The notes under the pieces are model-generated. The model searched no databases. It was not told where the DNA came from and worked only from the letters and a program-made list of their open reading frames with translations. DNA of 64,000 nucleotides from Corynebacterium sp. Marseille-P3884 (lineage in GTDB: Bacteria; Actinomycetota; Actinomycetes; Mycobacteriales; Mycobacteriaceae): contig NZ_JAGKSD010000006.1 of NCBI RefSeq assembly GCF_017942225.1, forward strand, positions 1 through 64,000, given 5' to 3'. The first letter of the stretch is position 1; each line of letters begins with the position of its first letter. The position numbers were made by a program, and so were the translations under genes. Positions 6,991 to 57,414 of the stretch are shown piece after piece.

Positions 6991-8214
6991 TCAGCGGAGC
7001 TGCACGCCAAGCAACCCATCGAGCGCGTCGGCGATGATTCCGTTGTGGTCGCCGGGGGCGTCGTCGACGGTTTTCAGGGCGGTGACGGTGTCGAGGTCGT
7101 CGGCAAGCGCTGCGCGCAGCTTATCGACGACTCCCCTCGCCTCTTCCTCCCCCACTTCCCTGCCGAGCATCTCACGCCACCTGGCCAAACGCGCCTCCGC
7201 CTCGTCGAGAATGCCGTAGGAGAAATCCCGGTCCTCACGGTAGTGGCCAGCGAATACCGCGAGGCGGATCGCCGCCGGGTCGTGTCCGGCTTCGGAGAGC
7301 TTGTGAACGAAGACGAGGTTGCCGAGTGATTTCGACATTTTCACGCCGTCGAGGGCGATCATGCCGGTGTGGACGTAGTGGCCGGCCATGCGGTCGACGC
7401 CGTACGTGGCTTCGGCGTGAGCCGCGGAGAATTCGTGGTGCGGAAACGCGAGGTCACTGCCGCCGCCCTGAATCGAGAACGTCGTGCCGAGACGGTTCGT
7501 CGCGATCGCCGAGCACTCGATGTGCCAGCCCGGCCGACCTGCACCGAACGGCGCGTCCCACGCTGGTTCCCCGTCTCGGTGGCCGCGCCACAGTAGCGCG
7601 TCGAGGGGGTCGCGCTTGCCTTCGCGATCCGGGTCGCCGCCGCGCTCGGCGAAGAATTTCTCCATCGTCGCCCGGTCAAGGTTCGATTCGTACCCAAACT
7701 GCGGGGTAGCTGTGATGGGGGCGTAGATGTCGGTGGCGCCGGAGGTGTCGTCGATAAGCGAATATGCGATGCCCTTGTCCAGCAGTACCTGGACCATCTC
7801 GACGACCTCGTCGACGGCTTCCATCGCGCCGATGTAGTCGCGCGGCGGGATGACCGAGAGGATCTCCATGTCGCTGCGGAACAGGTCGATCTGGCTCGTG
7901 CCGAGCTCACGCCAATCGACGCCATCCCGTTCCGCGCGCTCGAACAGCGGGTCGTCGACGTCCGTGATGTTCTGCACGTAGTGGACCTTGTGCCCGTTGG
8001 CCAGCAGCTGGCGATACACGAGGTCGAACGTCAGGTACGTCGCCGCGTGCCCGAGGTGCGTCGAATCGTAAGGCGTAATACCGCACACATACATGCCGAC
8101 TTCGCCATCGCCCGTCTCGACGCGCTTTACTTCCCCATCCGCTGTGTCGTACAGCGCGAGCGGCACAGGTGTGCCAGCCACCGATGGGACCGCAGGATTA
8201 GGCCAAGAATGCAT
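6991..8214 (-). CDS. mshC: L-cysteine:1D-myo-inositol 2-amino-2-deoxy-alpha-D-glucopyranoside ligase
   Basis: The ATP-dependent ligase of mycothiol synthesis, joining cysteine to glucosaminyl-inositol. The 407-residue protein resembles class I cysteinyl-tRNA synthetase: [17 protein letters not shown] contains a zinc-ligand Cys44 and the HIGH-like THLGH, followed by the KMSKS loop near residue 290 and the [11 protein letters not shown] zinc/substrate region. I start it at the ATG at 8214, giving [10 protein letters not shown] as in known MshC proteins; a longer frame adds 11 unrelated residues. A TAGGGT -10 box is 7 nt upstream, so the mRNA is probably leaderless. The shorter C-terminus, lacking the tRNA-binding domain, distinguishes it from CysS. 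Confidence 0.95.
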
Positions 8215-8221
8215 GCAGCCC

Positions 8222-8227
8222 ACCCTA
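8222..8227 (-). promoter_or_regulatory. -10 box of mshC (leaderless start)
   Basis: TAGGGT on the minus strand ends 7 nt before the mshC ATG; no ribosome-binding site is seen. Confidence 0.45.
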
Positions 8228-8289
8228 CAACCCCAAAGCCTGGCCATGACGCGCGTCCTGCCGACACCTGCTGAACTCTACTTATATTT

Positions 8290-8311
8290 GGGCGTGCGGA
8301 AGTGGCCGTGG
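8290..8311 (+). repeat. 22-bp repeat, downstream end of HNH unit 1
   Basis: This 22-bp block (gggcgtgcggaagtggcc then gtgg) matches 52719-52740 at 19 of 22 positions and lies just beyond the 3' end of the HNH gene in both places. The sequence beyond it and most of the sequence between it and the gene differ, so it looks like a unit boundary. Confidence 0.5.
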
Positions 8312-8329
8312 GGTGTGGTGGCCCCTCGG

Positions 8330-9400: not shown

Positions 9401-9452
9401 GCCCCACACGCTAAACCGACCAACGCAAACGCGAAACAGGCAACCCAAAAAC

Positions 9453-9479
9453 CTGTGGATAACTCAAAACTATCCACAA
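9453..9479. promoter_or_regulatory. inverted pair of DnaA-box-like sequences upstream of HNH copy 1
   Basis: TGTGGATAA at 9454-9462 is the exact complement of the DnaA box TTATCCACA, and CTATCCACA at 9470-9478 differs by one base in the opposite orientation. They are separated by 7 nt and lie about 55-80 nt upstream of the HNH start codon. Function as DnaA sites is inferred. Confidence 0.5.
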
Positions 9480-9548
9480 GAACACACGAACGAACACCCT
9501 CAAAAACACTCACCGCGCACCCTAAAACACCTGTCTACAAGGGAAAAC

Positions 9549-9587
9549 GGGGTGGTGTGGGAGGCAGTGTGGCGTCGTCAAGCGAAA
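9549..9587 (+). repeat. 39-bp repeat, upstream end of HNH unit 1
   Basis: A 39-bp block that matches 54002-54040 at 37 of 39 positions, in the same orientation relative to the HNH gene. It ends with gtggcgtcgtcaagcgaaa and abuts the uppP stop codon (9593-9595). The shared block is surrounded by unrelated sequence in the two places, so it is a candidate terminal repeat of the HNH unit. Confidence 0.65.
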
Positions 9588-9592: not shown

Positions 9593-10441
9593 TTAAGCGT
9601 TCATGACACCTGTCGCGAGGAGAATGAGGACAATGATGCCCAACGGAATGCGGTAGGCGGCGAACCACGCGAACGAATGGTTGGAGACGAACTTCAGCAG
9701 CCACGCGATGGAGATATAGCCGAGCACGAAACCGATGACGGCACCGACGAGCAGTTGGATGCCGGTGGCGGATTGGCCGGCTTGGGGGGCGAAGGCGTCG
9801 GGAAGCGAGAAAAGCCCGGAGGCTAGCACCGCCGGAATGGCGAGCAGGAAGCTGAAACGCGTGGCCACCTCGCGGTCGAGGCCGCGGAAGAGACCGCCCG
9901 AGATCGTGCCGCCGGAACGGGACACGCCGGGAATGAGCGCGAGGCACTGCCACAACCCCATGACGATGGCGTCTTTCATCGTCAGCTCGTCGTAGCCGCG
10001 AGTCTTGGAGCCGACGCGTTCTGCGAAAATGAACACGAAGGAGAACAAAATCAGCACGGTCGCGGTGATCCAGAGGTTGCGGAAGTTCTCGCGGATCAAG
10101 TCCTTGAGCAGGACGCCGGCAAGCCCGACGGGAATGGTGCCGACGATGACCATCCATCCCATGCGGTAGTCGAAACCGCGTTTCGACGGGTTGAACAGCC
10201 CGGCGAACCAGCCGGAAAGGATCTGCCAGATCTCTTTGGCGAAGAAGACGAGCACCGCCAGCTCCGTGCCGAGCTGAATGACGGCGGTGAAGCTCGCGCC
10301 GGCGTCCTGGCCCCAGAACAGTTCGGAGACGATTCGCAGGTGGCCGGAGGAGGACACCGGCAGAAATTCGGTCAGGCCCTGCACGATGGACAGGACGATG
10401 ACCTGCATCCAGGACATGGTTTCGGTGGTTGCGTCAATCAC
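9593..10441 (-). CDS. uppP: undecaprenyl-diphosphate phosphatase
   Basis: A membrane enzyme that dephosphorylates undecaprenyl pyrophosphate so the lipid carrier can be reused for peptidoglycan and arabinogalactan synthesis. The 282-residue protein has the catalytic [15 protein letters not shown] motif near the N-terminus and PGVSRSGGT in the middle, with about eight membrane segments. I prefer the GTG at 10441 ([11 protein letters not shown]...) because C. glutamicum UppP also has residues before the conserved core; the ATG at 10417 is the alternative. The very long frame to 10657 runs through the divergent lipoprotein region and is not real. It lies upstream of the HNH unit and mshC. Confidence 0.95.
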
Positions 10442-10521: not shown

Positions 10522-11523
10522 GTGAAAAATCGCCGTTCGCTGACAGTATTCGTCGCTTCATCCGCTGCTTCTGTGCTTCTGCTCGCGGGGTGCTCGCAGC
10601 CGCCGGGAGTGCCGCAGGAGGCCCCAGAGATGGGTAACGCGGAGCCAGCGAAGTCACCGCCGGCAGGCGACGTGGAGGGCGAGAAGGTCGATTTTCCGGC
10701 GGTGGAGGACCTGGAGATCACGAACGGCACGATCGGTGTCCGCGCGGATGGGCAGTTGCGTCTCGGCACGCTCGACGAGATCAAGGCTGGCGGCGGCGCC
10801 ACGCACCAGGTCGACGACACGTGCGGGGATGTCACGGCGAACGAGGGTGCGTTCGTGACGGTGTGCGGCGGAACGGTCCGCGTTTTCGAGGGCGCGGAGG
10901 AGCGAACAGTCACGCCGGATGAGCCGGTCACCGTCGCCGCACCGCTTCCCGACGGCCGCGTCATCGCCGGTTCGGCCGAAGAAGCCAAGGTGTGGGTTTT
11001 CGACACCGACGGAAACCAGACCGGGCGCATCACAGTGGCGCGGCCGTCGGATTTCGTGCTCGCCGGCCAGGACAGGGTCGTGCGTCTGAACCGCTTCGAC
11101 ACGACGATCCAGGATATTCAGCTGGACAAGGCCCGCCAGGGCGGCACGTTGCGTGTGGGTCTCGGCGTCGGCCAAGCGAAATTCGGCGAGGACGGGCTCG
11201 TGCTCGCCTCAGATTCCACGGGTAGCCAGCTGCTGGTCTACACCACGGACGAGGTCGTCCGTCTGCACCAGACGGTCCCGACGGACCCCCACCCGTGGGC
11301 GGTGGCGTGGGATCCGGCCAACAAACTCGCGTGGATCACGTCGACGGAGAAGAACACGGCTACTGCCTTCGACATCTCGAAGGGCGTGCCGCGCGAGCAG
11401 CGGAAGGTGGACACAGTCGCGGATGCGCAACACATGATTTCGCTTGACGACGGCACCCTCCTCCTCGCCTCTGCCTCCGGCGACGGCCTGCAGATCGTCA
11501 CTCCAGAATCCGACAAGGACTGA
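10522..11523 (+). CDS. secreted lipoprotein, beta-propeller-like
   Basis: A 333-residue lipoprotein: basic start MKNRRS, hydrophobic stretch and lipobox LLLAGC with the lipidated cysteine at residue 24. The mature part is a series of short strand-rich segments containing [23 protein letters not shown] and [15 protein letters not shown], which resemble blades of a beta-propeller of the kind seen in surface lipoproteins next to pyrD in corynebacteria. No enzymatic motif was seen. The GTG at 10522 is chosen because it puts the signal peptide at the N-terminus; the frame extends upstream but without a signal. It is divergent from uppP and 20 nt before pyrD. Confidence 0.85.
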
Positions 11524-13165: not shown

Positions 13166-13685
13166 CCCAGCCCCAGACGATAGCGCGGCCAAGCGAGTGG
13201 AAATTCAGGTTGAAGCCGAGCTGAGTCGGGTTGGCGACACCTGCAGCCGGCAGCTCCGTGTCCACGGCGTGCACGGCGAACAAATAACGGTGCGGGCCGT
13301 GGCCCTGCGGCGGATTAGAACCGTAGTAGCCCTGCACCCCGGAATCACCGGTGAGGACAACGGCACCGACGCCGAGGCCCTCCTTGGAGCCAGCGTCAGT
13401 GGGCAGCTCGGTGACGTCGACGGGAATGTTGAACGCGGCCCAGTGCCAGAAGCCTGATGCGGTCGGCGCATCGGGGTCGAAGCACGTCACTGCGATGGAC
13501 TTGGTTCCCTCCGGCAGGTCGGACCAGGACAGCTGCGGGGAGACTCCGTCGTCGCCGGTCTGGGCGTCGGGAAGCTGTTCTCCGTCAACCAGGTCGGTGG
13601 AGGTGACGGGAAACGACGGGACGTCGACAAGCGGTGCGTACGGGTCTGGGCCTGGGAAACGATCGGAAACATACGAAACAGTCAT
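13155..13685 (-). CDS. YbhB/YbcL-type phosphatidylethanolamine-binding (PEBP) protein
   Basis: A 176-residue cytosolic protein of the PEBP/Raf-kinase-inhibitor-like family. Family motifs are visible: CFDPDAPTASGFWHW (about residues 68-82) and GYYGSNPPQGHGPHRYLF (about 119-136), which form the small anion-binding pocket. The biological role of bacterial members is not settled. The ATG at 13685 follows AAAGGAGA at the right distance; the longer frame to 13790 would run into the tRNA promoter region. It is upstream of and overlaps the small lipoprotein gene. Confidence 0.9.
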   Translation of the reverse strand: MTVSYVSDRFPGPDPYAPLVDVPSFPVTSTDLVDGEQLPDAQTGDDGVSPQLSWSDLPEGTKSIAVTCFDPDAPTASGFWHWAAFNIPVDVTELPTDAGSKEGLGVGAVVLTGDSGVQGYYGSNPPQGHGPHRYLFAVHAVDTELPAAGVANPTQLGFNLNFHSLGRAIVWGWDEN

Positions 13686-14602: not shown

Positions 14603-15262
14603 GTGAAACTTCGCCAGGTTGTCGTGCTCGTTGCGGCCGTGCTTTTCATCGCGGCATGGATGCTTATCGACGTCCCCTCCCTCGCCCAACTCCGCTCCTG
14701 GTCCGAGCAGACCGGCGCGTGGTTCCCCGTGGTGTTCTGGCTGGCGTATGTGGTGATCACTCAGTTCCCGATTCCCCGCACGCTGCTCACCGTGTCGGCG
14801 GGAGTGCTGTTCGGCGCGGTGAAAGGCATCACGCTGGCGCTGACGGCCACGACGGTCTCTGCGGTGATCTCGCTGCTGCTGGTGCGCTTCTTGCTGCGTG
14901 ACTGGGTGGAGCCGCGGTTGACGCATCCGGCGGTGCAGCGGATCAATCAGAGGCTCGAAGAACGCGGCTGGCTGGCCGTCACGAGTCTGCGGATGATCGC
15001 GGGCATTCCCTTCTCGATCATGAACTACGCGGCGGCGCTCACACGTGTCCCGGTGCTGCCGTTCGCTGTGGCCACACTCGTGGGGTCGGCGCCGGGCACA
15101 ATCCTGGTCACCATGTTCGGGCAGACGCTCACCGACGATCCTGACCCGATTTTCGTGGCCATCATGGCAGTGCTCGCGGTGATCGGCATTGCAGGATTGC
15201 TTTTCGACGCCACCACGCCCACCCGTCAAGCCTCCACCGTAGACCGCGGGTCAGGGGTCTAG
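14603..15262 (+). CDS. VTT-domain (SNARE-associated/TVP38-type) membrane protein
   Basis: A 219-residue integral membrane protein. The VTT/SNARE-associated domain spans about residues 40-170, with FPIPRTLLTVSAGVLFG and the conserved RMIAGIPFSIMNYAAALT segment. DedA/TVP38 proteins are implicated in lipid flipping and membrane homeostasis; the exact substrate here is unknown. It begins at the GTG at 14603. Its TAG stop (15260-15262) forms the first half of the -10 box of the next gene. Confidence 0.87.
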   Translation: MKLRQVVVLVAAVLFIAAWMLIDVPSLAQLRSWSEQTGAWFPVVFWLAYVVITQFPIPRTLLTVSAGVLFGAVKGITLALTATTVSAVISLLLVRFLLRDWVEPRLTHPAVQRINQRLEERGWLAVTSLRMIAGIPFSIMNYAAALTRVPVLPFAVATLVGSAPGTILVTMFGQTLTDDPDPIFVAIMAVLAVIGIAGLLFDATTPTRQASTVDRGSGV

Positions 15263-15272: not shown

Positions 15273-15830
15273 ATGATTGCTGTCCATGCCCGATACCGTG
15301 GCCGCGGTGCGCGGCGCGCCGAACTCGTCAAACGCTCCGCCGAAGCTCTGTCGACCCTCGACGGAGTGAACCGTTTCGATGTCGTCGGTGTCGAGGACAT
15401 CCGCGCCCACGTCGACGATGCTGAAGCCGCCTGCATGCTCGTCATGGCGCTCTTGTCCGACGGGAATTGGGCCATCGGTATCGGCATCACAGAAAAAGGC
15501 CCCGCCGTCTACGCCGCAACAGATGGGGCGGGAAATAAGGCGGGGTCGGTGGGAGTGGTCGTCGATAAGCCTGAGCCCGGAACGGACGCTGCGGACATTG
15601 CGTCTGCGTTCGCGTTGCTCGGTCATGTTCTGGCAAAACGCACCGTCGAGGGCCGTGAGGCGACCTCGCTGGTGCGTTCCGGGTTGAATCAGAATGAGGC
15701 AGCGGCCGAGCTCGGCATCTCTAAACAGGCGATGAGCCAGCGCCTGCAGGCTGCCGGGTGGCAGGCCGAGCAGGCGGGCTGGCAGCTCGCCGTCAATTTG
15801 ATGTCTAGGGCTGCTGGGGATACTGGTTAG
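15273..15830 (+). CDS. protein with C-terminal helix-turn-helix, unknown function
   Basis: A 185-residue cytosolic protein. The C-terminal part (about residues 132-172, NQNEAAAELGISKQAMSQRL) is a clear helix-turn-helix of the type found in small DNA-binding regulators. The N-terminal 125 residues hold a VDDAEAACMLVMALLSDGNWAIGIGI core that I cannot assign with certainty. It may be a transcriptional regulator. Its last 26 bp overlap the end of the convergent SPFH gene. A -10 box 7 nt before the ATG indicates a leaderless mRNA. Confidence 0.8.
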   Translation: MIAVHARYRGRGARRAELVKRSAEALSTLDGVNRFDVVGVEDIRAHVDDAEAACMLVMALLSDGNWAIGIGITEKGPAVYAATDGAGNKAGSVGVVVDKPEPGTDAADIASAFALLGHVLAKRTVEGREATSLVRSGLNQNEAAAELGISKQAMSQRLQAAGWQAEQAGWQLAVNLMSRAAGDTG

Positions 15831-17567: not shown

Positions 17568-17606
17568 ACGGTCAGGTTAACGCATTTTCGGGCGTCGATA
17601 AGTCAC

Positions 17607-18458
17607 TCAAAAGCTTTCTTTTGGCAACTCCGGCGTTGTCACGAAATCGACGAGCCGCTCGACCGCGCCAATGAGCGTGTGGTCGAGGTCGCGGAACGTC
17701 TCGACCGCACCGTACACGCGATTCCACCCCTCGCGCGGATCCGACCAGCCGACGCGGCGACAGATGCCCGTCTTCCAGTCCTCGCCCTTCGGCACGTCCG
17801 GCCAGGCGCGCAACCCCAAGCGCTCGGGCTTGACCGCCGCCCAGATATCCACGTACGGGTGCCCGGTGACCAGCACGTGCGGGCCGACATCCGCCACGAG
17901 CCGCGACTCTTTCGACCCGGCAATGAGGTGGTCGGCGAGTACCCCGATGCGGCGTCCGGGCCCCGGCTGGAACTCCGCGAGCCGCTCCGGCAGATTGTCC
18001 AAGCCTTCCAGGAACTCGACGACGACGCCCTCGACGCGCAGATCGTGCCCCCACACCTTCTCCACAATCGCGGCGTCGTGCACGCCTTCGACCCAAATCC
18101 GCGACGGCATCGCCACTTTCGCCTGAACATTCTCCACGCGCCGGGACCCCGAATTCGAACGACGCGCTTCACGCTTGACGACGGGCCGCGTCAAGGTCAC
18201 CCTCTCCCCCTCCACCAGGAACGCGCCAGGCAGCATCTTGAACAGTCTTTGCGTGCCGTAGCGATCCTCGAGCCGGACGAACTCGCCGTCATAGGTGCGC
18301 TCCACGCCGACAACGAGCCCCACGAAGTCGTCGCCGAACACCTCCGCCACCACATCGCCGGTTGCTTCCACCTGCGGGTACACCTTCGGTCGCTTGCGGG
18401 CGTGACCGGCGAAAATATCGCCGCCGTACGGGTCTGCGTGGCTGTTGAATCCGCTCAT
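17607..18458 (-). CDS. DUF3097 family protein
   Basis: A 283-residue cytosolic protein conserved in actinobacteria. It contains SGFNSHADPYGGDIFAGH at the N-terminus, a WVEGVHDAAIVEKVWGHDLRVEGVVVE segment that resembles the acidic core of a TOPRIM fold, and VLVTGHPYVDIWAAVKP in the C-terminal half. Function unknown. I start it at the ATG at 18458 (MSGFN), since the longer frame reaching 18584 covers the divergent promoter and part of the next gene. A TACACT -10 box lies 10 nt upstream. Confidence 0.85.
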   Translation of the reverse strand: MSGFNSHADPYGGDIFAGHARKRPKVYPQVEATGDVVAEVFGDDFVGLVVGVERTYDGEFVRLEDRYGTQRLFKMLPGAFLVEGERVTLTRPVVKREARRSNSGSRRVENVQAKVAMPSRIWVEGVHDAAIVEKVWGHDLRVEGVVVEFLEGLDNLPERLAEFQPGPGRRIGVLADHLIAGSKESRLVADVGPHVLVTGHPYVDIWAAVKPERLGLRAWPDVPKGEDWKTGICRRVGWSDPREGWNRVYGAVETFRDLDHTLIGAVERLVDFVTTPELPKESF

Positions 18459-18493: not shown

Positions 18494-19270
18494 GTGAGTA
18501 CGCGCGCCGAAGTCTATTCTCCCCTGCAGAACACCGCCGTCTGGCTCGCGGCATGGCTCTACGGGCACGAGCCCTCCGACGCACTCGTCGGCGCCATGAC
18601 GGAATTGCACGGCCGGAACAGCTACCAGGGCGAACCGCTCGCGCATTTGCTTCACGACGTCCGCGCCTCCACCGACCTCACCTCCCCCGGCCCCGCCGTC
18701 CGCCTCATTTTGTCTGGCCCCGGCCAACCTCCGGAACTGCCCGCGGGTTCAGCGGCCGCATTGGCCGCCACCGAACTCAGCGGCGGCAGCGCGATCGTGC
18801 TCCGCGGCAACGGAGGCGTGTCCCATGTTCTGGTGCCTGACAGCTCTTCCGAGCTGGGGGTTAGCGATGAAAGCGCCGGGGTCTTTTGGCGGTGGTTCGA
18901 AGAGGACGGCCCCCTTCCGGAGCCAGCGTGGCTCTCCCCCGGCGAGGCCGATGCTCTGCTATCGCGCGCAACGAACGAGGCCTCGCTACTGATTGAGGCC
19001 GCGGGCGGCACGCGCGAGGAGTTGCCCGACCCGCGCCTGGCGGTGGGGACGCTCTCAGATTTCTACGACACGCCCGGTTTGCCCATGCGTACGCCACCGC
19101 GTGCCGCGAAACTCTTCGCGCGGGCGGACGCGGTGGCGGCGGTCATTGAGACTGTGGTCGACAGGTTGAACGACCACAGCTTCGATCCCCAGCTCTTCAG
19201 CCTCTGGCGGCACATCCGTACCGCACGCATGGCTGGGGTGGCCGATGCGGTACTGGAGTACCAGCGCTGA
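18494..19270 (+). CDS. conserved hypothetical protein
   Basis: A 258-residue soluble protein without a signal peptide or membrane segment. It is acidic, with an N-terminal helical part (LQNTAVWLAAWLYGHEPSDALVGAM) and a C-terminal helical part ending ARMAGVADAVLEYQR. I do not recognise a domain. I start it at the GTG at 18494 because the TATACT -10 box is 8 nt upstream and the earlier ATG lies before that box. It is divergent from DUF3097 and convergent with ferrochelatase. Confidence 0.75.
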   Translation: MSTRAEVYSPLQNTAVWLAAWLYGHEPSDALVGAMTELHGRNSYQGEPLAHLLHDVRASTDLTSPGPAVRLILSGPGQPPELPAGSAAALAATELSGGSAIVLRGNGGVSHVLVPDSSSELGVSDESAGVFWRWFEEDGPLPEPAWLSPGEADALLSRATNEASLLIEAAGGTREELPDPRLAVGTLSDFYDTPGLPMRTPPRAAKLFARADAVAAVIETVVDRLNDHSFDPQLFSLWRHIRTARMAGVADAVLEYQR

Positions 19271-26280: not shown

Positions 26281-26290
26281 GCTTATCGAC
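26281..26290 (-). repeat. intergenic copy of the dispersed 10-mer GTCGATAAGC
   Basis: GTCGATAAGC on the minus strand, between the acn terminator and the amidotransferase gene. One of three intergenic copies among 15 in the window. Confidence 0.6.
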
Positions 26291-26337
26291 GACACCGCCG
26301 CTCGCCCCCAATTTCACTCCTACTAGACCAAGCGGTA

Positions 26338-29752: not shown

Positions 29753-31381
<1,629 letters not shown>

Positions 31382-32362: not shown

Positions 32363-34460
<2,098 letters not shown>

Positions 34461-44551: not shown

Positions 44552-44561
44552 GCTTATCGAC
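44552..44561 (-). repeat. intergenic copy of the dispersed 10-mer GTCGATAAGC
   Basis: GTCGATAAGC on the minus strand in the ctaB-capA divergent region, preceded by the G-rich AGCGGGGGAC seen near several other copies. Confidence 0.6.
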
Positions 44562-44659
44562 GTCCCCCGCTTTCCTACGCCCTTGGCATCCTAGTCCCCG
44601 CCCGCACCGGCATGAAATTACCGCGCTTTTCACCCACATATGTTGTTAGATAACTACTT

Positions 44660-45868
44660 ATGAAACCCCGTATCACAACGACCCTCGCCGCCGTGCTTTG
44701 CTCCGGTGCTCTGCTCACTGGCTGCACCATCGGCGATGGCGTTGATGCCCCCAATGCGAGCTCCGCGACCGAGGCTTCCCCGGCGCAGTCTTCCGGCGCT
44801 ACCGACGCACCCGACGCGTCGTCAGAAGACAAAGCCGAACCGGAGCTGGAAGAAGCATCGGTGACGTTCCGCTCCGTCGGTGACATCCTCATTCATAATG
44901 AGGTCTATTTCGACGCGGCGGCAAAAGCTGAAGGCAGCGGCCAGGACTACGATTTCGCGCCGATGTTTGAACCGGTGAAAAAGTACATGGAGAACGCGGA
45001 CATCACCACCGCGAATATGGAGGTCCCTGTCGCCGGCCCCGAATTCGAGCTGTCGGGCTACCCAGCCTTCAACTCCCCGCCGGAAGTCGTGGACGCGCTC
45101 AAAGGGGCGGGCGTTGACATCGTCAACAACGCGACCAATCACTCGATGGATCGGGGAACGGAGGGAGTCAAGGCGTCGACAAGCAATCTGCGCGAACGCG
45201 AAATGCTGTACATGGGCAGCTTCGACTCCCCGCAGGACCGTGCGACGCCGCGCGTGATCGAGCGCAACGGGCTGAAAGTCGGCTTCCTCGGCTACACGTA
45301 CGGCACGAACGGAATCCCCGTGCCCGCCGGGGAGGAACACGCGGTGAACCTCATCGATCCGGAGCTGATGAAGCGCGATATCGATGAGCTGCGTGACGAC
45401 GTCGACATCCTCATCGTCAACCTCCACGCCGGCGAAGAATACGAATCGCTGCCCGTCCAATCGCAGATCGACGCGGCTGATACTGCCCGCAACGCTGGCG
45501 CCGATTTCGTCCTCGCAGGCCACCCGCACGTGCTTGAGCCGTTCCAGCGCTACCCGGAGAACGAGCCGGGGCTGGGTGTCTGGTTCTCGCACGGCAATTT
45601 CCTCCACGGGCAATACGACGAGCAAACGAAATACGGCGGCATCGGCGAATACACCATCACCCGCCGCACCGACGGCACGCTCACGCTGGACAAGATCCGC
45701 TTCATGCCCACGTACACCGTCGGCAAGCCGCAAACCACCGAGTACAAGGTCATTCCGCTTGCCGACGCCGCCTCCCTCGGCTGGGTCGACCCCGTCAACG
45801 CCCACGCCGACATTACCGCGCTGATGAACACGTACACCGACGTCGAGGTCGTCGACTACCTCGACTGA
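44660..45868 (+). CDS. CapA family (poly-gamma-glutamate capsule-type) lipoprotein
   Basis: A 402-residue secreted lipoprotein with lipobox LLTGC (lipidated Cys22), then a Ser/Ala/Asp-rich stretch to about residue 65. The CapA-type metallophosphatase-like domain spans about 68-310: FRSVGDILIHNEVY, TTANMEVPVAG, NNATNHSMDRG and LAGHPHVLEPF contain the expected Asp, Asn and His metal ligands. CapA proteins help make or anchor poly-gamma-glutamate, but single genes like this one are common and their role is unclear. It interrupts the ctaB-tkt neighbourhood. Confidence 0.88.
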   Translation: MKPRITTTLAAVLCSGALLTGCTIGDGVDAPNASSATEASPAQSSGATDAPDASSEDKAEPELEEASVTFRSVGDILIHNEVYFDAAAKAEGSGQDYDFAPMFEPVKKYMENADITTANMEVPVAGPEFELSGYPAFNSPPEVVDALKGAGVDIVNNATNHSMDRGTEGVKASTSNLREREMLYMGSFDSPQDRATPRVIERNGLKVGFLGYTYGTNGIPVPAGEEHAVNLIDPELMKRDIDELRDDVDILIVNLHAGEEYESLPVQSQIDAADTARNAGADFVLAGHPHVLEPFQRYPENEPGLGVWFSHGNFLHGQYDEQTKYGGIGEYTITRRTDGTLTLDKIRFMPTYTVGKPQTTEYKVIPLADAASLGWVDPVNAHADITALMNTYTDVEVVDYLD

Positions 45869-48137: not shown

Positions 48138-48153
48138 GGGAAAACAGGGAAAC

Positions 48154-48163
48154 GTCGATAAGC
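48154..48163 (+). repeat. intergenic copy of the dispersed 10-mer GTCGATAAGC
   Basis: GTCGATAAGC followed by GAAAAGG between tkt and tal, immediately before the tal ribosome-binding site. Confidence 0.6.
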
Positions 48164-48178: not shown

Positions 48179-49255
48179 ATGACCGCAATTGACCGCCTCG
48201 CCGAAATTGGCACTTCCACCTGGCTCGACGACCTGTCGCGCGAACGCATCGTCTCCGGCAACCTCGCCGAGATCAAATCCGCCAAGTCGCTGGCCGGAGT
48301 GACCACGAACCCGGCGATCTTCGCCAAGGCCATGTCCTCGGGCACCGCCTACGACGCGCAGATTGCCGAGCTCAAGGACGGAAAGGTCGGCGTCGACGAA
48401 GCTGTCTACGCCATGAGCGTCAAAGACGTCCAGGACGCCTGCGACCTGTTCCGCGACGTCTTCGACGCCACCGGCGGGCAGGACGGGCGCGTGTCCATCG
48501 AGGTCGACCCGCGCCACGCCGACGACGAAGCAGCAACCGTCGCCCACGCGAAGGAACTGTGGGAGTTCGTCGACCGACCGAACGTGATGATCAAGATCCC
48601 CGCCACCGACGCCTCCCTGCCCGCGATCACGCAGGCGCTCGCCGAGGGCATCTCCGTCAACGTCACGCTCATCTTCTCCGTCGAGCGCTACAAGCAGGTC
48701 ATCGACGCCTACATTGCGGGCATTGAGCAGGCCGCTGCCAACGGGCACGACGTCTCCGGGATTCACTCCGTCGCTTCCTTCTTCGTCTCCCGCATGGACA
48801 CCGAGGTGGACAACCGCCTCGACGCGATCGGCACCGACGAAGCACGCGCGCTCAAAGGCAAGGCCGGCATCGCGAACGCGCGCCTGGCGTACCAGCTGTT
48901 CCTCGATACGCTCAGCGACCTGCCGGACGGCGCCAACAAGCAGCGTCCGCTGTGGGCATCCACCGGCGTGAAGAACCCCGACTACCCCGCCGACATGTAC
49001 GTCGTCGAGCTCGCGGGTCCCGACACCGTCAACACCATGCCCGAGCCGACCATCGACGCCACGCTCAACGGCGACAACGTCCGCGGCGACACGCTCAACG
49101 GCACCGCCGACGAGGCACGCGCCGTCTTCGAGCAGCTCGCCGCCGTAGGCATTGAGCTTGACGACGTCGTCTCCGTCCTCGAACGCGAAGGCGTTGATAA
49201 GTTCGTCGATGCGTGGCAGGAATTGCTCGACTCCATGCTCGAGAATTTGAAATAG
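48179..49255 (+). CDS. tal: transaldolase
   Basis: Moves a dihydroxyacetone unit from sedoheptulose 7-phosphate to glyceraldehyde 3-phosphate. The 358-residue length fits the longer actinobacterial type. The signature LAGVTTNPAIFAKA and the Schiff-base lysine segment RPNVMIKIPATD are present, with NVTLIFSVERYKQVIDAYIAGIEQA following. An AAAAGGAG site precedes the ATG. Second gene of the pentose phosphate operon. Confidence 0.97.
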   Translation: MTAIDRLAEIGTSTWLDDLSRERIVSGNLAEIKSAKSLAGVTTNPAIFAKAMSSGTAYDAQIAELKDGKVGVDEAVYAMSVKDVQDACDLFRDVFDATGGQDGRVSIEVDPRHADDEAATVAHAKELWEFVDRPNVMIKIPATDASLPAITQALAEGISVNVTLIFSVERYKQVIDAYIAGIEQAAANGHDVSGIHSVASFFVSRMDTEVDNRLDAIGTDEARALKGKAGIANARLAYQLFLDTLSDLPDGANKQRPLWASTGVKNPDYPADMYVVELAGPDTVNTMPEPTIDATLNGDNVRGDTLNGTADEARAVFEQLAAVGIELDDVVSVLEREGVDKFVDAWQELLDSMLENLK

Positions 49256-49373: not shown

Positions 49374-50915
49374 GTGTCGAACCCGGCACCCGAAGAATGG
49401 AAGAACCCCCTCCGCTCGCATGCTGACCGGCGCCTCCCGCGGATTGCCGGCCCCTCCGGCATGGTCATCTTCGGTGTGACCGGCGACTTGGCCAAGCGGA
49501 AACTGCTGCCCGCCATCTACGACCTCGCCTACCGCGGACTCCTGCCCGCCGGCTTCACCCTCGTCGGCTTCGGCCGCCGCCCCTGGTCGAAGGAAGAATT
49601 CGAACACTACGTCCGCGAACAAGTCGAAGTAGGCGCCCGCACCGACTTCGACGAGCACGTCTGGGACCGCCTCGCCGAAGGCATGCACTTCGTCCAAGGC
49701 GCCTTTGACGACGACGCTGCCTTCGACTCCATGGCCGAGCTCCTCGACCACATGGACGCGACTCGCGGCACCGCCGGCAACTGGGCCTTCTACTTGTCCG
49801 TGCCGCCGGAGTACTTCTCCAATGTGATCGACCAGCTCGACCGCACCGGCATGGCGAAAGCACGCGATGGACAGTGGCGCCGCGTGATCATCGAGAAGCC
49901 CTTCGGCCACAACCTCGCCACCGCGCGCGAACTCAACGAGACCATCAACTCCGTGTTCCCCGAGCGCGCCGTCTTCCGCATCGACCACTACCTCGGCAAA
50001 GAGACCGTCCAGAACATCCTGGCCATGCGTTTTGCCAACCAGATGTTTGAGCCGCTCTGGAACGCCCAATTCGTCGACCACGTCCAGATCACCATGGCCG
50101 AGGACATCGGACTCGGCGGACGCGCCGGCTACTACGACGGCATCGGCGCCGCCCGCGACGTCATTCAGAACCATCTCCTCCAGCTCCTCGCACTGGTGGC
50201 CATGGATGAGCCAGTGTCTTTCTCCCCGCGGCAGCTGCGCTACGAAAAACTCAAGATTCTCCGCGCCACCAAGCCCATCGGCCCCTTCGAAGAGACCACC
50301 GCACGCGGCCAGTACACCGCCGGGTGGCAGGGCTCCGAGCAAGTCCTCGGCCTGCGCGAAGAGGACGGCTTCGACCCCGAGTCCACCACCGAGACCTACG
50401 CCGCGTGCACCCTCGGCGTGAACTCGCGCCGCTGGGCTGGCGTGCCGTTCTACCTGCGCACCGGCAAGCGTCTCGGACGTCGCGTCACCGAGATCGCGCT
50501 GGTATTCAAAAAGGCCCCGCACGAAGCATTCGGCCCAGGCCTGACCAGCCAGCTCGGCGCGAACACACTCGTCATCCGCGTCCAGCCCGATGAAGGCATC
50601 TTGCTCCGCTTCGGCTCCAAAGTCCCCGGCTCCACGATGGAAGTCCGCGACGTCAACATGGACTTCTCCTACACCGAAGCATTCACCGAGGAGTCGCCGG
50701 AAGCGTACGAGCGCCTCATTCTCGACGCGCTTCTCGACGAAACCGGTCTCTTCCCCACCGCCGCCGAAGTCGAACGCAGCTGGGAAATCCTCGACCCCAT
50801 CCTCGACTACTGGGCCGCAAACGGCCGCCCCGACGAATACGCCGCCGGCACTTGGGGCCCCACCTCCGCAGACGAAATGATGGCCGCCCACGGACGGACC
50901 TGGCGCCGCCCGTAG
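49374..50915 (+). CDS. zwf: glucose-6-phosphate 1-dehydrogenase
   Basis: Catalyses the first oxidative pentose phosphate step, producing NADPH. The 513-residue protein has the NADP loop [19 protein letters not shown] (about residue 37), the catalytic [13 protein letters not shown] (about 201-213) and YEGVPF-like [17 protein letters not shown] start it at the GTG at 49374, with AAAGG upstream; the N-terminal extension matches that of C. glutamicum Zwf. It works with OpcA, encoded downstream. Confidence 0.97.
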
Positions 50916-51913: not shown

Positions 51914-52642
51914 ATGATTACCGTCGAGAACGTCCCCAATCTCGATGTGCTTATCGACGAAGCCTCTGCCCGCTTCGTCGACACCGTCACCGAGATCATT
52001 ACCTCCGATACCGGCGGTGTGCACGGGGACGGAATCGCACGCGTAGTTTTCACCGGCGGCGGCGCCGGTATCAAGCTCCTGTCGCGCCTCGTGCGCGCCA
52101 AGAACCTCGACTGGTCCCGCATCCACGTCTTCTTCGGCGACGAACGCAATGTCCCCGTCTACGACCCGGACTCCAACGAAGGGCAGGCACGGTACGCCCT
52201 GCTCAACCACGTCAATATCCCGGAGTCCAATATTCACGGCTACCGCCCCGGCAACCTTCCGCTTGACGACGCAGCCGCGAACTACTCCAACGCCATCCAC
52301 CAGCACGCTCCCCGGGGCTTCGACCTCCACCTCCTTGGCATGGGCCCCGACGGACACATTAACTCGCTGTTCCCCTCCTCCCCGCAGCTGAGCGAAGCAG
52401 ACAAGCTCGTCGTCGGTGTCACCGACTCCCCGAAGCCGCCCGCTGAACGCATCACCCTGACGCTCCCCGCCGTCGCCCGCGCGAAGCAGGTCTGGCTCCT
52501 TGTGTCCGGCTCCGAAAAGGCCGAAGCCATCAGCCACCTCGTGGACGGCGAGCCCTCCGACGAATGGCCCGTCACGCGCGTTCCCGCCCTCGCGGATACC
52601 ACCCTTTTCGTCACGGAGGACGCTTTCACCCCGGCGCAGTAG
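51914..52642 (+). CDS. pgl: 6-phosphogluconolactonase
   Basis: Hydrolyses 6-phosphogluconolactone in the oxidative pentose phosphate pathway. The 242-residue protein (DevB type) has VFTGGGAGIKLLSRL, WSRIHVFFGDERNVP and DLHLLGMGPDGHINSLFPSSP, the last including catalytic His and Asp. I start it at the ATG at 51914, which follows AAGGAG by 8 nt; the longer frame is not supported. It is the last gene of the tkt operon. Confidence 0.96.
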   Translation: MITVENVPNLDVLIDEASARFVDTVTEIITSDTGGVHGDGIARVVFTGGGAGIKLLSRLVRAKNLDWSRIHVFFGDERNVPVYDPDSNEGQARYALLNHVNIPESNIHGYRPGNLPLDDAAANYSNAIHQHAPRGFDLHLLGMGPDGHINSLFPSSPQLSEADKLVVGVTDSPKPPAERITLTLPAVARAKQVWLLVSGSEKAEAISHLVDGEPSDEWPVTRVPALADTTLFVTEDAFTPAQ

Positions 52643-52793: not shown

Positions 52794-53861
52794 CTATTTC
52801 CCGAACAACAAGTGCATGGCACCAAACTGGTGTGTGCTGTTCGCCACTGGTGTTCCGCGCGGTGAAACCCATGTCGGTGTCCCATCGCGCACCTGTATTC
52901 GACCCCTGTTGTGCCTGTCGGGGTCATCGTCGTTGGTGCGGTTGTGGTACCTGCACAACACCGACAGGTTATTCATGTTTGTCGGCCCACCGCGGGCCCA
53001 GGGTTCGATGTGGTGGACCTCGCAGTTATCAGCAGCATGCCGGCAATCCGGCACAGGACACGTGGTCAGTGTTGCCCGGGCGAGGTCTCGTTGTTTCTTA
53101 TTGGCGAACCGTTTCGTGTTGTACAGGTTCACCGGCCCTGCCTGCGGGTGGAACAGTGCGACTTCCAAGTCGGACCCGTGGAACCGAGTGAGGTACTCCG
53201 CACCAGTCATCGTCGTGCCATCAGACAGGCCCAAGATGGTGTCATCGCCTTGGCCGCCGAGGATCGAGATGTAATCCGGAAGCGGGATCTGGACCAGCGG
53301 CCGTGGAACAGCCTCAGGAACAGCACCGTCCTTGTGGAGCAGGTCGTGGAACGCCTCGTACATCTGCGGGCCCTCAGGACGATTAGCATCGAGTTTTTGG
53401 CGCAGCGCGTACTCAAGGGCAGCGATATCCCGCGCATCACCGGTGGCGCTAAAGGTGCGTTTACCTTTCCGCTCCTTGCCGAACCGCACCGTCGACTCAG
53501 GTGCAGGTGTATCCACCTCAGGGACGATGTCTTTGGCGCGGCGTTTCAACGTCTCGTAGTTCCCGCGCACAGACAGCAACGCGAGGCGGATCTTCCACTT
53601 TTCTTTTTCGGTGCCCAACTTGCGGACTCGTTGCTCGATGAGCACCAATTGATCCAGTGACTTCGCAGTCTGGCGGGCGACACGAACGGCATTAGCCTGC
53701 TGGCGGGAAAACCGGGTCTTTCCGTAATAGACCTCGTAGACGCCTTTCCAGTCGGCAACGCGGGTGGGGTTGGCGCCGGCGTCGACAAGCTGCTGGGCGT
53801 TGAAACTACCCAGCAAGTCGATGGCATTGCCCGCGCCGACATGCGCCGCGAATTGGTTCAT
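52794..53861 (-). CDS. HNH endonuclease of the DUF222/13E12-repeat type, copy 2
   Basis: A 355-residue paralogue of the protein at 8330-9400. The two are nearly identical from about residue 84 (LGTEKEKWKIRLALL) to the end, including the HNH domain CPVPDC...CEVHHIEPWARGG...CRYHN, but the first 80 residues are only distantly similar. Start ATG at 53861 (MNQFAAHV). It sits between pgl and the TPR gene, where C. glutamicum also carries variable DNA. A 22-bp palindromic structure lies 42 bp upstream. Target sequence unknown. Confidence 0.88.
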   Translation of the reverse strand: MNQFAAHVGAGNAIDLLGSFNAQQLVDAGANPTRVADWKGVYEVYYGKTRFSRQQANAVRVARQTAKSLDQLVLIEQRVRKLGTEKEKWKIRLALLSVRGNYETLKRRAKDIVPEVDTPAPESTVRFGKERKGKRTFSATGDARDIAALEYALRQKLDANRPEGPQMYEAFHDLLHKDGAVPEAVPRPLVQIPLPDYISILGGQGDDTILGLSDGTTMTGAEYLTRFHGSDLEVALFHPQAGPVNLYNTKRFANKKQRDLARATLTTCPVPDCRHAADNCEVHHIEPWARGGPTNMNNLSVLCRYHNRTNDDDPDRHNRGRIQVRDGTPTWVSPRGTPVANSTHQFGAMHLLFGK

Positions 53862-54001: not shown

Positions 54002-54040
54002 GGGGTGTTGTGGGAGACAGTGTGGCGTCGTCAAGCGAAA
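54002..54040 (+). repeat. 39-bp repeat, upstream end of HNH unit 2
   Basis: Matches 9549-9587 at 37 of 39 positions and includes gtggcgtcgtcaagcgaaa. It lies about 140 bp upstream of the HNH copy 2 start, in the same orientation as at copy 1. Confidence 0.65.
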
Positions 54041-55030: not shown

Positions 55031-55042
55031 GCGGTCTGATTC

Positions 55043-55279: not shown

Positions 55280-55339
55280 GTGATGATGCCTCCATATCGG
55301 GTACGGGCGGTTAACCGTTCACATATTACATGAACGGGC

Positions 55340-55373
55340 AAGCTTCCCCAGCATCGGCGTGCCGGGGAAGCTT
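55340..55373. other. hairpin between tpiA and secG
   Basis: Perfect 10-bp arms AAGCTTCCCC (55340-55349) and GGGGAAGCTT (55364-55373) lie just downstream of the tpiA stop. No T-tract follows, so this may be an L-shaped actinobacterial terminator. Confidence 0.45.
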
Positions 55374-55387
55374 TGGGGTGAGGGCCT

Positions 55388-56173
55388 CTAGGCGCGGACT
55401 GCGTCGCCTGCGGCGGCGACGAGTTTGGCGAAGTCGTTGCCGTCGAGGGAAGCGCCGCCGACGAGGCCGCCGTCGACATCGGGTTGGCCGATGATGTCGG
55501 CAATGGTGTCGGCCTTCACGGACCCGCCGTAAAGGATGCGGATGGAGGAGGCGACGGTGTCGTCGGCAAGCTCGGCGATGAGGCCGCGGATGGCGGCGCA
55601 GATCTCCTGGGCGTCTTCAGCGGACGCGCTCTTGCCGGAGCCGATGGCCCACACGGGCTCGTAGGCGATCACGGTCTTGGCGAGTTCCTCGGTGGACAGG
55701 CCAGCGAGCGATTCGCGCGTTTGCTTGACGACGAAGCCCACGTGCTCCCCTGCCTCCCGCACATCCAAGGGCTCACCGACACAGACGATCGGGCTGATGC
55801 CGTTGTCGAGTGCGGCCTTGGCTTTAGAGGCGACGAGTTCGTTGGACTCGTTGTGGTAATCGCGGCGCTCGGAGTGGCCGACGACAACCCACGTGCAGTC
55901 CAGCTTGGCCAGCATCGCCGCGGAGATCTCGCCGGTGTAGGCACCGGACTCGTGGGCGGAGACGTCTTGGGCGCCGTAGGTGATCTTCAGCTTGTCGCCC
56001 TGGACGAGGGTCTGCAGGGACCGCAGGTCGGTGAAGGGGACGGTGAGGGCGACGTCGACGTCCTCGTAGTAGTCGCCCGGCAGCGCGAATGCGAGACGCT
56101 GCGCCTGGGAGATGGCCTCGAGGTGGTCGTGGTTCATCTTCCAGTTGCCGGCGATCAGTGGTGTGCGTGCCAT
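55388..56173 (-). CDS. tpiA: triosephosphate isomerase
   Basis: Interconverts dihydroxyacetone phosphate and glyceraldehyde 3-phosphate. The 261-residue protein has GNWKMN (substrate Asn and Lys), VVGHSERR (catalytic His), [11 protein letters not shown] (catalytic Glu and loop 6) and a C-terminal YGGSVK and [11 protein letters not shown] phosphate site. I start it at the ATG at 56173; the longer frame overlaps pgk. It is third in the gapA-pgk-tpiA series. Confidence 0.97.
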
Positions 56174-56193
56174 TAGTAGTGGCTCCTTTCGCT

Positions 56194-57414
56194 CTAGTTC
56201 TGTTCCAGGACGGCGACGCCCGGAAGTTCCTTGCCTTCGACGAGCTCGAGGGAAGCGCCGCCGCCGGTGGAAATGTGGGAGAAGCCGTTCTCGTCGAGGC
56301 CGAGCGTGCGCACAGATGCGGCAGAGTCGCCGCCGCCGACGACGGTGAAGGAGCCGTTGTTCGCGGTGGCGTCGATCATGGCCTGGGCGACGGCGCGGGT
56401 GCCGTCGGCGAAGTTCGGCTTCTCGAACACACCCATGGGGCCGTTCCAGAACACGGTCTTGGAGTCGGCGATGATCTCTGCGTACTTCTTGGCGGTCTCC
56501 GGGCCGATGTCGAGGGACATCCAACCTTCAGGGGTGCCGTCGAGGTCGACGACCTTGCGGTCGGCATCGTTGTCGAATTCGGAGGCGACCACGAGGTCGA
56601 CCGGCAGGACAATCTTGTCGCCGTACTTCTCGATGAGTTCCTTGCAGGTGTCCACCATCTCTTCCTGCAGCAGGGAGGCCTGGGTGTTGTGGCCCTGCGC
56701 GGTGAGGAAGGTGTAGCACATGCCGCCGCCGATGATGACCTTGTCAGCCTTCTCGGCCAGAGCCTCGATGACACCGAGCTTGTCGGAGACCTTGGAGCCG
56801 CCGAGCACGACGACGTACGGGGAGGTCGGGTTGTCCTTGACGGAGGCGAGCTTTTCCACCTCGTCCTGGACAAGGTAGCCGGCGTAGGCGGGAAGGCGCT
56901 TCGCTACGTCAAACACGGAGGCCTGTGCGCGGTGAACAACGCCGAAGCCGTCGGAGACGAAGGCGCCGTTGTCTGCGGCCAGGGCAGCGAGCTCGTCGGC
57001 GAAGGTGCCGCGCTCGGATTCGTCCTTGGAGGTCTCACGGCCGTCGAAACGCACGTTCTCGACGAGGAGCACATCGCCTTCGGACAGGCCGTTGGCACGC
57101 TCGTGAGCATCCTCGCCGGTGACGTCGGATGCCAGGGCGACGTACTGACCGAGCTTGTCGGACAGGGCCTCTGCCACAGGCTTGAGGGAGTACTTCGGGT
57201 TGACTTCACCTTTGGGACGGCCGAGGTGGGCGGTGAGGATGACCTTGGCGCCGCCGTCGATAAGCGCCTTGATGGTGCGCAGCGACGCGTCGATGCGTCC
57301 GGCGTCCGTGATGTTGCCGTCGTCGTCGAGCGGGACGTTGAAGTCAGAGCGGACGAGCACGTGGCGTCCGTCGACGCCCTCCTTGAGCAGTTCGTCGATG
57401 GAACGTACAGCCAT
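56194..57414 (-). CDS. pgk: phosphoglycerate kinase
   Basis: Makes ATP from 1,3-bisphosphoglycerate and ADP. The 406-residue protein shows [47 protein letters not shown] and the nucleotide-binding [19 protein letters not shown] sequence lies before the ATG at 57414. It follows gapA, from which a strong hairpin terminator separates it. Confidence 0.97.

Follow-up and report, generated by a model that had tools for sequence, protein, structure and literature searches.

Motif copies in the window

The window, the whole 64-kb stretch of Corynebacterium DNA analysed here, contains 58 copies of the 11-mer CGTCGNNAAGC, 30 on the plus and 28 on the minus strand (Table 1). The motif consists of nine fixed positions and a free central NN. 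An earlier note on this DNA had reported 15 exact copies of a 10-mer and one copy with a single mismatch at 17594-17603; on recount, all 15 coordinates and strands agree, and the near-copy is present where it was placed. The repeat is thereby confirmed as real, and its extent is greater than had been claimed. The 10-mer itself, however, is a truncated and over-specific form of CGTCGNNAAGC: its boundaries overlook a preceding C, and its central letters were taken as fixed but are in fact free. The C precedes the 10-mer in 15/15 copies of the window, in 97/99 copies of the sampled own genome and in 84/84 copies of genome G156. Sites with at most one mismatch to the 10-mer number 36 in the window (15 exact and 21 near), compared with a mean of 3.27 and a maximum of 10 in 100 dinucleotide shuffles. 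The flanks described earlier, G-rich upstream with G and then A after the core, are both seen in the own genome, and the upstream G-rich segment is weaker in G156.

The coding classes of the 15 copies are only partly as described. Seven Leu-Ile-Asp, four Val-Asp-Lys, one other-frame and three intergenic copies had been listed, and the recount gives five, three and one, with six outside called genes, by a rough gene caller that may have missed genes.

Table 1 Copies of the motif in the 64-kb window.
Feature	Position	Strand	Basis
CGTCGATAAGC full core, copy of the earlier note	7119..7129	(-)	exact motif count
CGTCGATAAGC full core	7749..7759	(+)	exact motif count
CGTCGATAAGC full core	14662..14672	(-)	exact motif count
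CGTCGATAAGC full core	15560..15570	(+)	exact motif count
CGTCGATAAGC full core	19361..19371	(+)	exact motif count
CGTCGATAAGC full core	23187..23197	(+)	exact motif count
CGTCGATAAGC full core	26281..26291	(-)	exact motif count
CGTCGATAAGC full core	27294..27304	(-)	exact motif count
CGTCGATAAGC full core	32398..32408	(+)	exact motif count
CGTCGATAAGC full core	37456..37466	(-)	exact motif count
CGTCGATAAGC full core	40542..40552	(-)	exact motif count
CGTCGATAAGC full core	44552..44562	(-)	exact motif count
CGTCGATAAGC full core	48153..48163	(+)	exact motif count
CGTCGATAAGC full core	51949..51959	(-)	exact motif count
CGTCGATAAGC full core	57255..57265	(+)	exact motif count
CGTCGNNAAGC, NN=GT	556..566	(+)	motif count
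CGTCGNNAAGC, NN=GT	2265..2275	(-)	motif count
CGTCGNNAAGC, NN=AG	3250..3260	(+)	motif count
CGTCGNNAAGC, NN=TC	4909..4919	(-)	motif count
CGTCGNNAAGC, NN=CT	5117..5127	(+)	motif count
CGTCGNNAAGC, NN=GC	7098..7108	(+)	motif count
CGTCGNNAAGC, NN=TC	9573..9583	(+)	motif count
CGTCGNNAAGC, NN=GG	9796..9806	(+)	motif count
CGTCGNNAAGC, NN=GG	10944..10954	(-)	motif count
CGTCGNNAAGC, NN=TC	11442..11452	(-)	motif count
CGTCGNNAAGC, NN=GG	13565..13575	(+)	motif count
CGTCGNNAAGC, NN=AC	13622..13632	(+)	motif count
CGTCGNNAAGC, NN=AA	15199..15209	(-)	motif count
CGTCGNNAAGC, NN=TC	18173..18183	(-)	motif count
CGTCGNNAAGC, NN=TG	18649..18659	(-)	motif count
CGTCGNNAAGC, NN=TC	20902..20912	(-)	motif count
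CGTCGNNAAGC, NN=GC	21660..21670	(+)	motif count
CGTCGNNAAGC, NN=TC	26716..26726	(+)	motif count
CGTCGNNAAGC, NN=AC	27591..27601	(+)	motif count
CGTCGNNAAGC, NN=TT	29030..29040	(-)	motif count
CGTCGNNAAGC, NN=AG	29950..29960	(+)	motif count
CGTCGNNAAGC, NN=AG	30805..30815	(+)	motif count
CGTCGNNAAGC, NN=AC	32080..32090	(-)	motif count
CGTCGNNAAGC, NN=AG	32860..32870	(+)	motif count
CGTCGNNAAGC, NN=CC	33280..33290	(+)	motif count
CGTCGNNAAGC, NN=TG	38182..38192	(-)	motif count
CGTCGNNAAGC, NN=TC	38397..38407	(+)	motif count
CGTCGNNAAGC, NN=GC	41392..41402	(-)	motif count
CGTCGNNAAGC, NN=AC	45174..45184	(+)	motif count
CGTCGNNAAGC, NN=GC	45718..45728	(+)	motif count
CGTCGNNAAGC, NN=GC	45757..45767	(-)	motif count
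CGTCGNNAAGC, NN=AA	46976..46986	(-)	motif count
CGTCGNNAAGC, NN=TC	49156..49166	(-)	motif count
CGTCGNNAAGC, NN=AG	50729..50739	(-)	motif count
CGTCGNNAAGC, NN=TC	52261..52271	(-)	motif count
CGTCGNNAAGC, NN=AC	53780..53790	(+)	motif count
CGTCGNNAAGC, NN=TC	54026..54036	(+)	motif count
CGTCGNNAAGC, NN=GC	55561..55571	(+)	motif count
CGTCGNNAAGC, NN=TC	55723..55733	(-)	motif count
CGTCGNNAAGC, NN=AA	58635..58645	(-)	motif count
CGTCGNNAAGC, NN=TC	60260..60270	(+)	motif count
CGTCGNNAAGC, NN=TC	61648..61658	(-)	motif count
CGTCGNNAAGC, NN=TC	62828..62838	(+)	motif count

Enrichment, DNA-level constraint and strand symmetry

Across the whole own genome the exact 10-mer occurs 682 times, against four occurrences of the reversed word, and CGTCGNNAAGC occurs 779 and 756 times on the two strands, against 43 and 41 for its reversed control. 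In a sample of 388,532 bases (including 4,923 masked N), 99 copies of the 10-mer are found where a fourth-order Markov model expects 2.6. Within called genes its 80 copies lie far above the 4.7 ± 1.9 that remain after synonymous-codon shuffling, a check that the earlier note had proposed. Because the null models differ, the enrichment ranges from about 17-fold to 170-fold, and the "about 100-fold" first given is a fair figure. For CGTCGNNAAGC, called genes of the own genome contain 223 copies versus 18.5 ± 4.0 after codon shuffling, and for CATCGNNAAGC 11 versus 8.9. Genome G006 exhibits the opposite pattern, with 54 versus 4.8 for CATCGNNAAGC and 7 versus 3.0 for CGTCGNNAAGC.

The proposal that selection acts on DNA rather than protein is supported by the codon shuffling, by the occupation of all six frame and orientation classes, and by the location of 46/269 sites outside called genes, a share equal to the non-genic share of the sequence (17.3%). 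The core is strict, with single-mismatch variants mostly near expectation and not in excess. A foreign-looking island (L030) contains no copies in 20 kb.

The motif is symmetric between strands, with totals of 75,490 and 75,439 when all G-form genomes except G150 (139 of 140) are summed. In G156, 113 of 225 sites in 20 sampled stretches lie on the leading and 112 on the lagging strand; with no strand or arm bias, the earlier judgement that this is not a polarity signal holds. The mean interval is 1.3 kb in the sampled own sequence, and spacing is near random (CV 0.95 in the own genome, 1.19 in G156). Pairs closer than 100 bp are not enriched, numbering 12 (7 inverted) versus 18.4 expected in the own genome and 9 (5 inverted) versus 12.3 expected in G156. 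In genomes with the known uptake words USS and DUS, inverted close pairs act as terminators, and the rarity of close pairs is a point against reading the motif as an uptake sequence, though the feature is secondary.

Dialects across Corynebacterium

The motif is widespread in the genus, and in many corynebacteria its copy number lies between roughly one hundred and nearly two thousand per genome; Corynebacterium urinipleomorphum and Corynebacterium sp. MSK041 are among the motif-rich members. The CGTCGNNAAGC form is carried by 140/201 Corynebacterium genomes, while CATCGNNAAGC (CATCG) is the main form in 11/201, each with 625 to 1337 sites; G150 is counted under both. A third form, GGCGTCAATA, occurs in 6 of the 55 genomes searched for it, and 156 genomes have a clear dialect overall. 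A weak signal is present in 3/201 genomes, and no form of the motif is found in 42/201. The count in related species suggested by the earlier note yields nothing comparable in 199 other genomes of the same order.

The dialects differ by a G to A change at position 2 and, in the third form, at position 5, both of the CpG-to-CpA type. At least three G/A changes are placed on a tree of 39 genomes. A comparison of two sister clades gives 18 orthologous sites at which G004 has CGTCG and G006 has CATCG. Among 30 G004 sites aligned to G006, 18 are switched to CATCG, none is kept and 12 are lost; among 24 G006 sites aligned to G004, 18 read CGTCG, none is kept and six are lost. The background G to A rate in this comparison is 7.2%. 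The switch is concerted at the sampled sites, as all 18 intact aligned orthologous pairs changed spelling. Evolution driven by uptake predicts such a switch, and the observation fits that reading.

Competence and pilus genes

ComEC is present in 200/201 Corynebacterium genomes, and the Tad ATPase family TIGR03819 in 198/201, above the family cut-off in 192. A ComEA-like gene, assigned by eye from the gene sequence, accompanies ComEC in 20/20 loci inspected. TadE-family matches, found in motif-free species as well, occur in 53/64 genomes, nine of them above cut-off. ComEC and Tad genes are also found in motif-free genomes and therefore do not explain the presence of the motif. Weak TIGR03819 scores seemed tied to motif-free species, but TadE is present there too, and the score split probably follows phylogeny. 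The own Tad ATPase gene meets a contig edge, and the single TadE-family match of this genome is weak with an internal stop, so the own pilus may not be intact.

Between G004 and G006, the TadC-like (70% amino-acid identity), TadF-like (73%), ComEA-like (73%) and TadB-like (76%) proteins are among the more divergent, and others are equally low or lower. The TadF-like minor pilin, which has a confident structure model, is a candidate for the receptor. Its sequence has no match in the PDB; a fold search of the PDB with its model gives nothing at E≤0.001, and none of the 50 matches listed is a pilin. By eye, no gene occurs exclusively with the motif in 20 Tad and 20 ComEA/ComEC loci, and no residue in the minor-pilin alignments cleanly splits the dialects; neither these comparisons nor those of TadF identified a DNA receptor. 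Among the matches listed in literature searches, uptake or competence in any Corynebacterium is absent, and of 587 papers that match at least one of four short strings, the 40 listed deal with no corynebacterial repeat, judging by titles and abstracts.

Interpretation of the motif

The earlier note left the choice between a DNA uptake sequence and a chromosome-organising site. Uptake is favoured, chiefly because the motif has three dialects and orthologous sites changed spelling in concert. A protein that binds some 1500 sites and thereby folds, holds together or marks the chromosome, with dialects as changes in its specificity, ranks lower and is unlikely. The dispersed copies, the strict core and the motif-free island would suit such a protein, whereas the near-random spacing, the lack of strand or arm bias and the motif-free species do not. 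A reader serving all sites could presumably hardly shift by one base with every site following, as the switched pairs would demand. A word created and maintained by a methyltransferase together with a short-patch repair enzyme is very unlikely, even though both dialect changes are of the CpG-to-CpA type and a methylation- or repair-linked origin has been suggested for cyanobacterial HIP1. Single-base repair would deplete one variant only, while nine fixed positions are needed here and most one-off variants are near expectation; moreover, the word is not palindromic, and the CATCG genomes each carry several hundred sites or more, not a vanishing set.

A Chi-like recombination hot-spot or a KOPS-like FtsK-orienting signal is more improbable still. 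Chi and KOPS have copy densities resembling that of the corynebacterial motif, and the word is non-palindromic, but the even leading and lagging counts in the sampled stretches of G156 speak against KOPS, and the RecC family PF04257 is found in 0/64 genomes with a positive E. coli control, which speaks against the Chi of RecBCD. Hardly any weight falls on a signal at the RNA or coding level, namely an mRNA word GCUUNNCGACG or a Leu-X-Asp peptide. Antisense copies in genes do exceed sense copies (162 versus 61), but this excess is in line with the positions where the peptide permits the motif (381 antisense versus 171 sense); copies also lie outside called genes, and codon shuffling with proteins unchanged removes most of the enrichment.

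CGTCGNNAAGC is thus a strand-symmetric, dialect-forming repeat over Corynebacterium chromosomes, and on sequence grounds is likely a DNA uptake sequence. With uptake sequences it shares genome-wide over-representation, lack of polarity, constraint at the DNA level, clade dialects and, at the level of the genus, competence genes. Competence, a receptor, uptake and drive are what we infer for corynebacteria. A putative surface receptor, for which a Tad minor pilin is one possibility, would recognise the motif in free DNA; retraction of the Tad-type pilus would then pass the DNA to ComEA and ComEC, and one strand would enter the cell and recombine. Since uptake would be efficient only for motif-bearing fragments, recombination would tend to introduce the motif into recipient chromosomes, where copies would accumulate and decayed ones would be restored. 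Few single-mismatch variants exceed expectation, a point against this reading, as decayed sites would have to be restored quickly. A one-base shift in receptor preference would, through this biased conversion, change sites genome-wide and give rise to dialects, with the motif serving as a "self" tag for uptake of DNA from relatives.

To our knowledge, there is no earlier case of a DNA uptake sequence in a Gram-positive lineage. It appears reasonably probable that corynebacteria evolved, independently of the two known cases, a third system for recognising self DNA during uptake, and that it is the first among Gram-positive lineages and among cells bounded by a mycolic-acid outer membrane. Such a system would have at least three dialects, and changes of receptor preference would have rewritten hundreds of sites in sister lineages and left a natural series of switches that includes lineages with relic sites of an older spelling. 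If so, Actinomycetota would hold a third, unrelated case of an uptake tag, which would suggest that many corynebacteria are naturally transformable with a preference for kin. The tag, added to donor DNA, would be a genetic tool, and it would help account for gene flow within the genus. The sister clades of opposite spelling make it testable how a genome follows a changed receptor preference, and whether molecular drive or a benefit maintains uptake sequences, an old question.

Comparison with known systems

HIP1 of cyanobacteria is a very abundant, dispersed short palindrome of unsettled origin; the corynebacterial word is likewise abundant, dispersed, short and of unsettled origin, but it is non-palindromic and has dialects. 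Tags for the uptake of self DNA are described in the Gram-negative families Pasteurellaceae and Neisseriaceae (PMC5031613). The DUS of Neisseriaceae is described as a short over-represented word with thousands of copies and dialects that follow clades (PMC3630211). The corynebacterial motif resembles it in being over-represented and having several clade-following dialects, but it is unrelated in sequence and phylum, its two central bases are free to vary, a ComP-like reader was not found here, and its role in uptake is a proposed one. In the actinobacterium Micrococcus luteus, the competence genes include tadA1, tadA2 and comEA/comEC, and the term "uptake sequence" is absent from the main text of that paper (PMC6667448). 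Corynebacterium has relatives of these tad and comEA/comEC genes; competence is a property of M. luteus, whereas in Corynebacterium it is putative. The USS of Pasteurellaceae is described as a joint motif ANNNGCGGT with internal variable positions, two clade-specific types and flanking segments (PMC1626085); the corynebacterial motif likewise has internal variable positions, clade-specific types and, less clearly, a flanking segment. The USS flanks are AT-rich while the corynebacterial upstream flank is G-rich, a point against the uptake reading. The USS types divide two old subclades, whereas the corynebacterial spelling has changed at least three times inside one genus.

The repeated word and its form

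The earlier note placed 15 exact copies of the 10-mer GTCGATAAGC and one near-copy in the window, and all these positions are correct. In the own genome (Corynebacterium sp. Marseille-P3884; 2.4 Mb, 32 contigs, of which the short C22, C24 and C25 are entirely N), the word occurs 352 times forward and 330 in reverse, and its backward-read control twice in each orientation. Sampling of 388,532 bases, 4,923 masked N among them, yields 99 copies versus 2.6 expected under a fourth-order Markov model. The enrichment also withstands a control close to one proposed in the note: called genes hold 80 copies, versus 4.7 +/- 1.9 (maximum 9) in 100 shuffles of synonymous codons within genes.

A C stands at position -1 of 97 of 99 own copies and of all 84 in G156, another species, and counts of all 32 words C[AG]TCGNNAAGC leave the two central bases free; the motif is therefore CGTCGNNAAGC. 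The preferred central pair is AT in the own genome and G156, and GC in genome G006. The window carries 58 copies (30 plus, 28 minus), and the own genome 779+756 versus 43+41 for the reversed word. The nine fixed positions are strict, with single-base variants mostly near expectation; CGTCGNNACGC departs from it most clearly (46 versus 19.6 expected in the own genome, 45 versus 13.0 in G156), and some others show a two- to threefold excess on small numbers. Own-genome copies, non-genic ones likewise, are flanked by a G-rich stretch 5' of the core and by G then A 3'.

Constraint at the DNA level

The motif behaves as a DNA word and not as an RNA or protein signal. The 402,610 bases sampled from the own genome hold 269 copies; 46 of these are non-genic, as are 17.3% of the bases, and the genic copies represent all six frame and orientation classes; genes were called by a simple codon-usage script, so that genic and strand splits are approximate. 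Antisense copies outnumber sense copies (162 versus 61), in step with the larger number of antisense positions at which the peptide permits the word (381 versus 171). Occupancy of permitted positions is 42.5% antisense and 35.7% sense, and lies further apart in G006, on small numbers (50.5%, 46/91, versus 18.6%, 8/43).

Distribution and dialects

The 201 Corynebacterium genomes were taken as drawn and classified at thresholds of our own: the G form CGTCGNNAAGC reaches at least three times its reversed control in 140 (115 to 1964 copies, median 1092) and the A form CATCGNNAAGC stands at 600 or more in 11; G150 is counted under both. CATCG is weak in three genomes, a third form occurs in six, and no form is found in 42. 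G150, with 1337 CATCG and 352 CGTCG words, may be in the course of changing from one spelling to the other. Word counting in G062 revealed the third form, GGCGTCAATA, which is present in 6 of 55 genomes searched and seems to depend less on the final AAGC than the G and A forms do. In 100 kb from each of five formless genomes (G022, G047, G155, G159, G170) no comparable alternative word is seen.

No excess of this kind appears in 199 non-Corynebacterium genomes of the order, where the count exceeds its reversed control by a factor of at most about 2.1 as judged by eye (G321, 185 versus 89); in the own genome the factor is 13.7. Six genomes outside Corynebacterium (G321, G296, G244, G020, G267, G360) show a mild excess of CRTCGNNAAGC, roughly 1.8- to 2.1-fold over its reversal, perhaps through codon usage. 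Named carriers of CRTCGNNAAGC include Corynebacterium sp. MSK041 (1040 copies) and C. urinipleomorphum (1189); C. variabile (143 versus 92) and a C. urealyticum MAG (108 versus 78) stay near control.

The repeat containing GCGCATGCGGGGATGAGCC in G156 resembles a published CRISPR repeat of C. aurimucosum and is probably a CRISPR array.

Locations of features in the window, the own genome (G000) and compared genomes
Feature	Location	Description
Near-copy of GTCGATAAGC	window, 17594	
Tad ATPase gene	L027:3-1232 (G000:C10)	reaches contig edge
TadE-family match	G000:C32:34136-34363	sole own-genome match; weak (E 6.9e-4); one internal stop
Motif-free island	L030 (G000:C16:1-20000)	0 copies in 20 kb (average ~13); 57.8% G+C; siderophore uptake genes, ribonucleotide reductase pair; two IS3-type transposases with identical Pfam scores
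Third-form genomes	G062, G083, G086, G133, G134, G141	140 to 174 copies versus 0 to 4 reversed
Repeat containing GCGCATGCGGGGATGAGCC	G156, L001-L020	~75 copies
Spaced words, 9-base period	G022, within L074-L083	TCGT-N5-TCGTC, 16 versus 0.6
CTCG-N-CGAG excess	G047 (75% G+C), within L074-L083	92 versus 10.1

A concerted switch between sister groups

On a tree of 39 genomes, built by a quick method from the Tad ATPase and neighbouring helicase, the G and A spellings require at least three changes; the group around G004, spelled with G, is sister to the A-spelled group around G006. Of five locus pairs compared between G004 and G006, four could be aligned, with nucleotide identities of 79 to 81%; 10 G004 and 20 G006 sites were dropped for want of an aligned partner. 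The 30 aligned G004 sites correspond in G006 to CATCG at 18 and to a lost motif at 12, and none keeps CGTCG; reciprocally, the 24 aligned G006 sites correspond in G004 to CGTCG at 18 and to a lost motif at six, and none keeps CATCG. Position 2 is conserved at 6/30 and 1/24 sites, the remaining fixed positions at 21 to 29 of 30 and 20 to 24 of 24, and the background G-to-A rate is 7.2%. CATCG words also number 118 to 159 in each of 11 G-form genomes, namely G004 and ten more, eight of which neighbour it on the tree; this is two- to threefold the median for genomes lacking a dialect (51.5) and is consistent with remnants of a former spelling.

Reading of the motif

A polar role as KOPS or RecBCD-Chi is opposed by strand balance and by a RecC search that was negative in all 64 genomes covered. 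The closed genome G156, counted in 20 evenly spaced 20-kb stretches divided at the GC-skew turn, has 113 leading- and 112 lagging-strand copies, bearing out the earlier claim of no polarity; strand totals are 75,490 versus 75,439 when all G-form genomes but G150 are pooled (139 of 140). On mechanism, we give the dialect switch the most weight. A housekeeping protein that needs its sites would be unlikely to alter its preference with the sites following. An uptake receptor could do so more easily: bias at uptake, with recombination, would spread the preferred word through the population, and an altered preference would rewrite the sites.

ComEC is present in 200 of the 201 genomes, accompanied in 20/20 loci by a ComEA-like gene (named by eye), and the Tad pilus locus (TIGR03819) in 198. 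Among 20 clustered Tad loci, ATPase and DECH helicase occur in all, with CpaE-like (17), TadB-like (16), TadC-like (19), Flp-like (16), TadE-like (16) and TadF-like (9) clusters; in G156, family models name CpaE, ATPase, helicase and, below cut-off, TadE, the other names being our reading. The TadF-like minor pilin, which source names place in the Rv3654c family, keeps two cysteines invariant across an alignment of 29 sequences and has a helix-plus-sheet model (mean pLDDT 88); by analogy it is a candidate reader, a role that a fold search with this model does not support.

Several results count against uptake. The machinery genes are common to motif-bearing and motif-free species and do not separate them, no motif-reading protein is identified, close motif pairs show no excess, and one-base variants hold little trace of decaying sites. 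The Tad genes as assembled in the own genome, with an edge-cut ATPase and a stop in the TadE match, would also weigh against it. The literature searched yields no demonstration of competence or uptake bias in any Corynebacterium, and none of the listings from the open-access papers covered describes an uptake sequence or the CGTCGNNAAGC word there; a spaced-motif survey including three Corynebacterium genomes ascribes their patterns, in the part consulted, to CRISPR repeats (PMC5217627).

Uptake sequences with dialects are known in two families (PMC3630211; PMC1626085; PMC5031613), and the competence genes of Micrococcus luteus include tadA1, tadA2 and comEA/comEC (PMC6667448).
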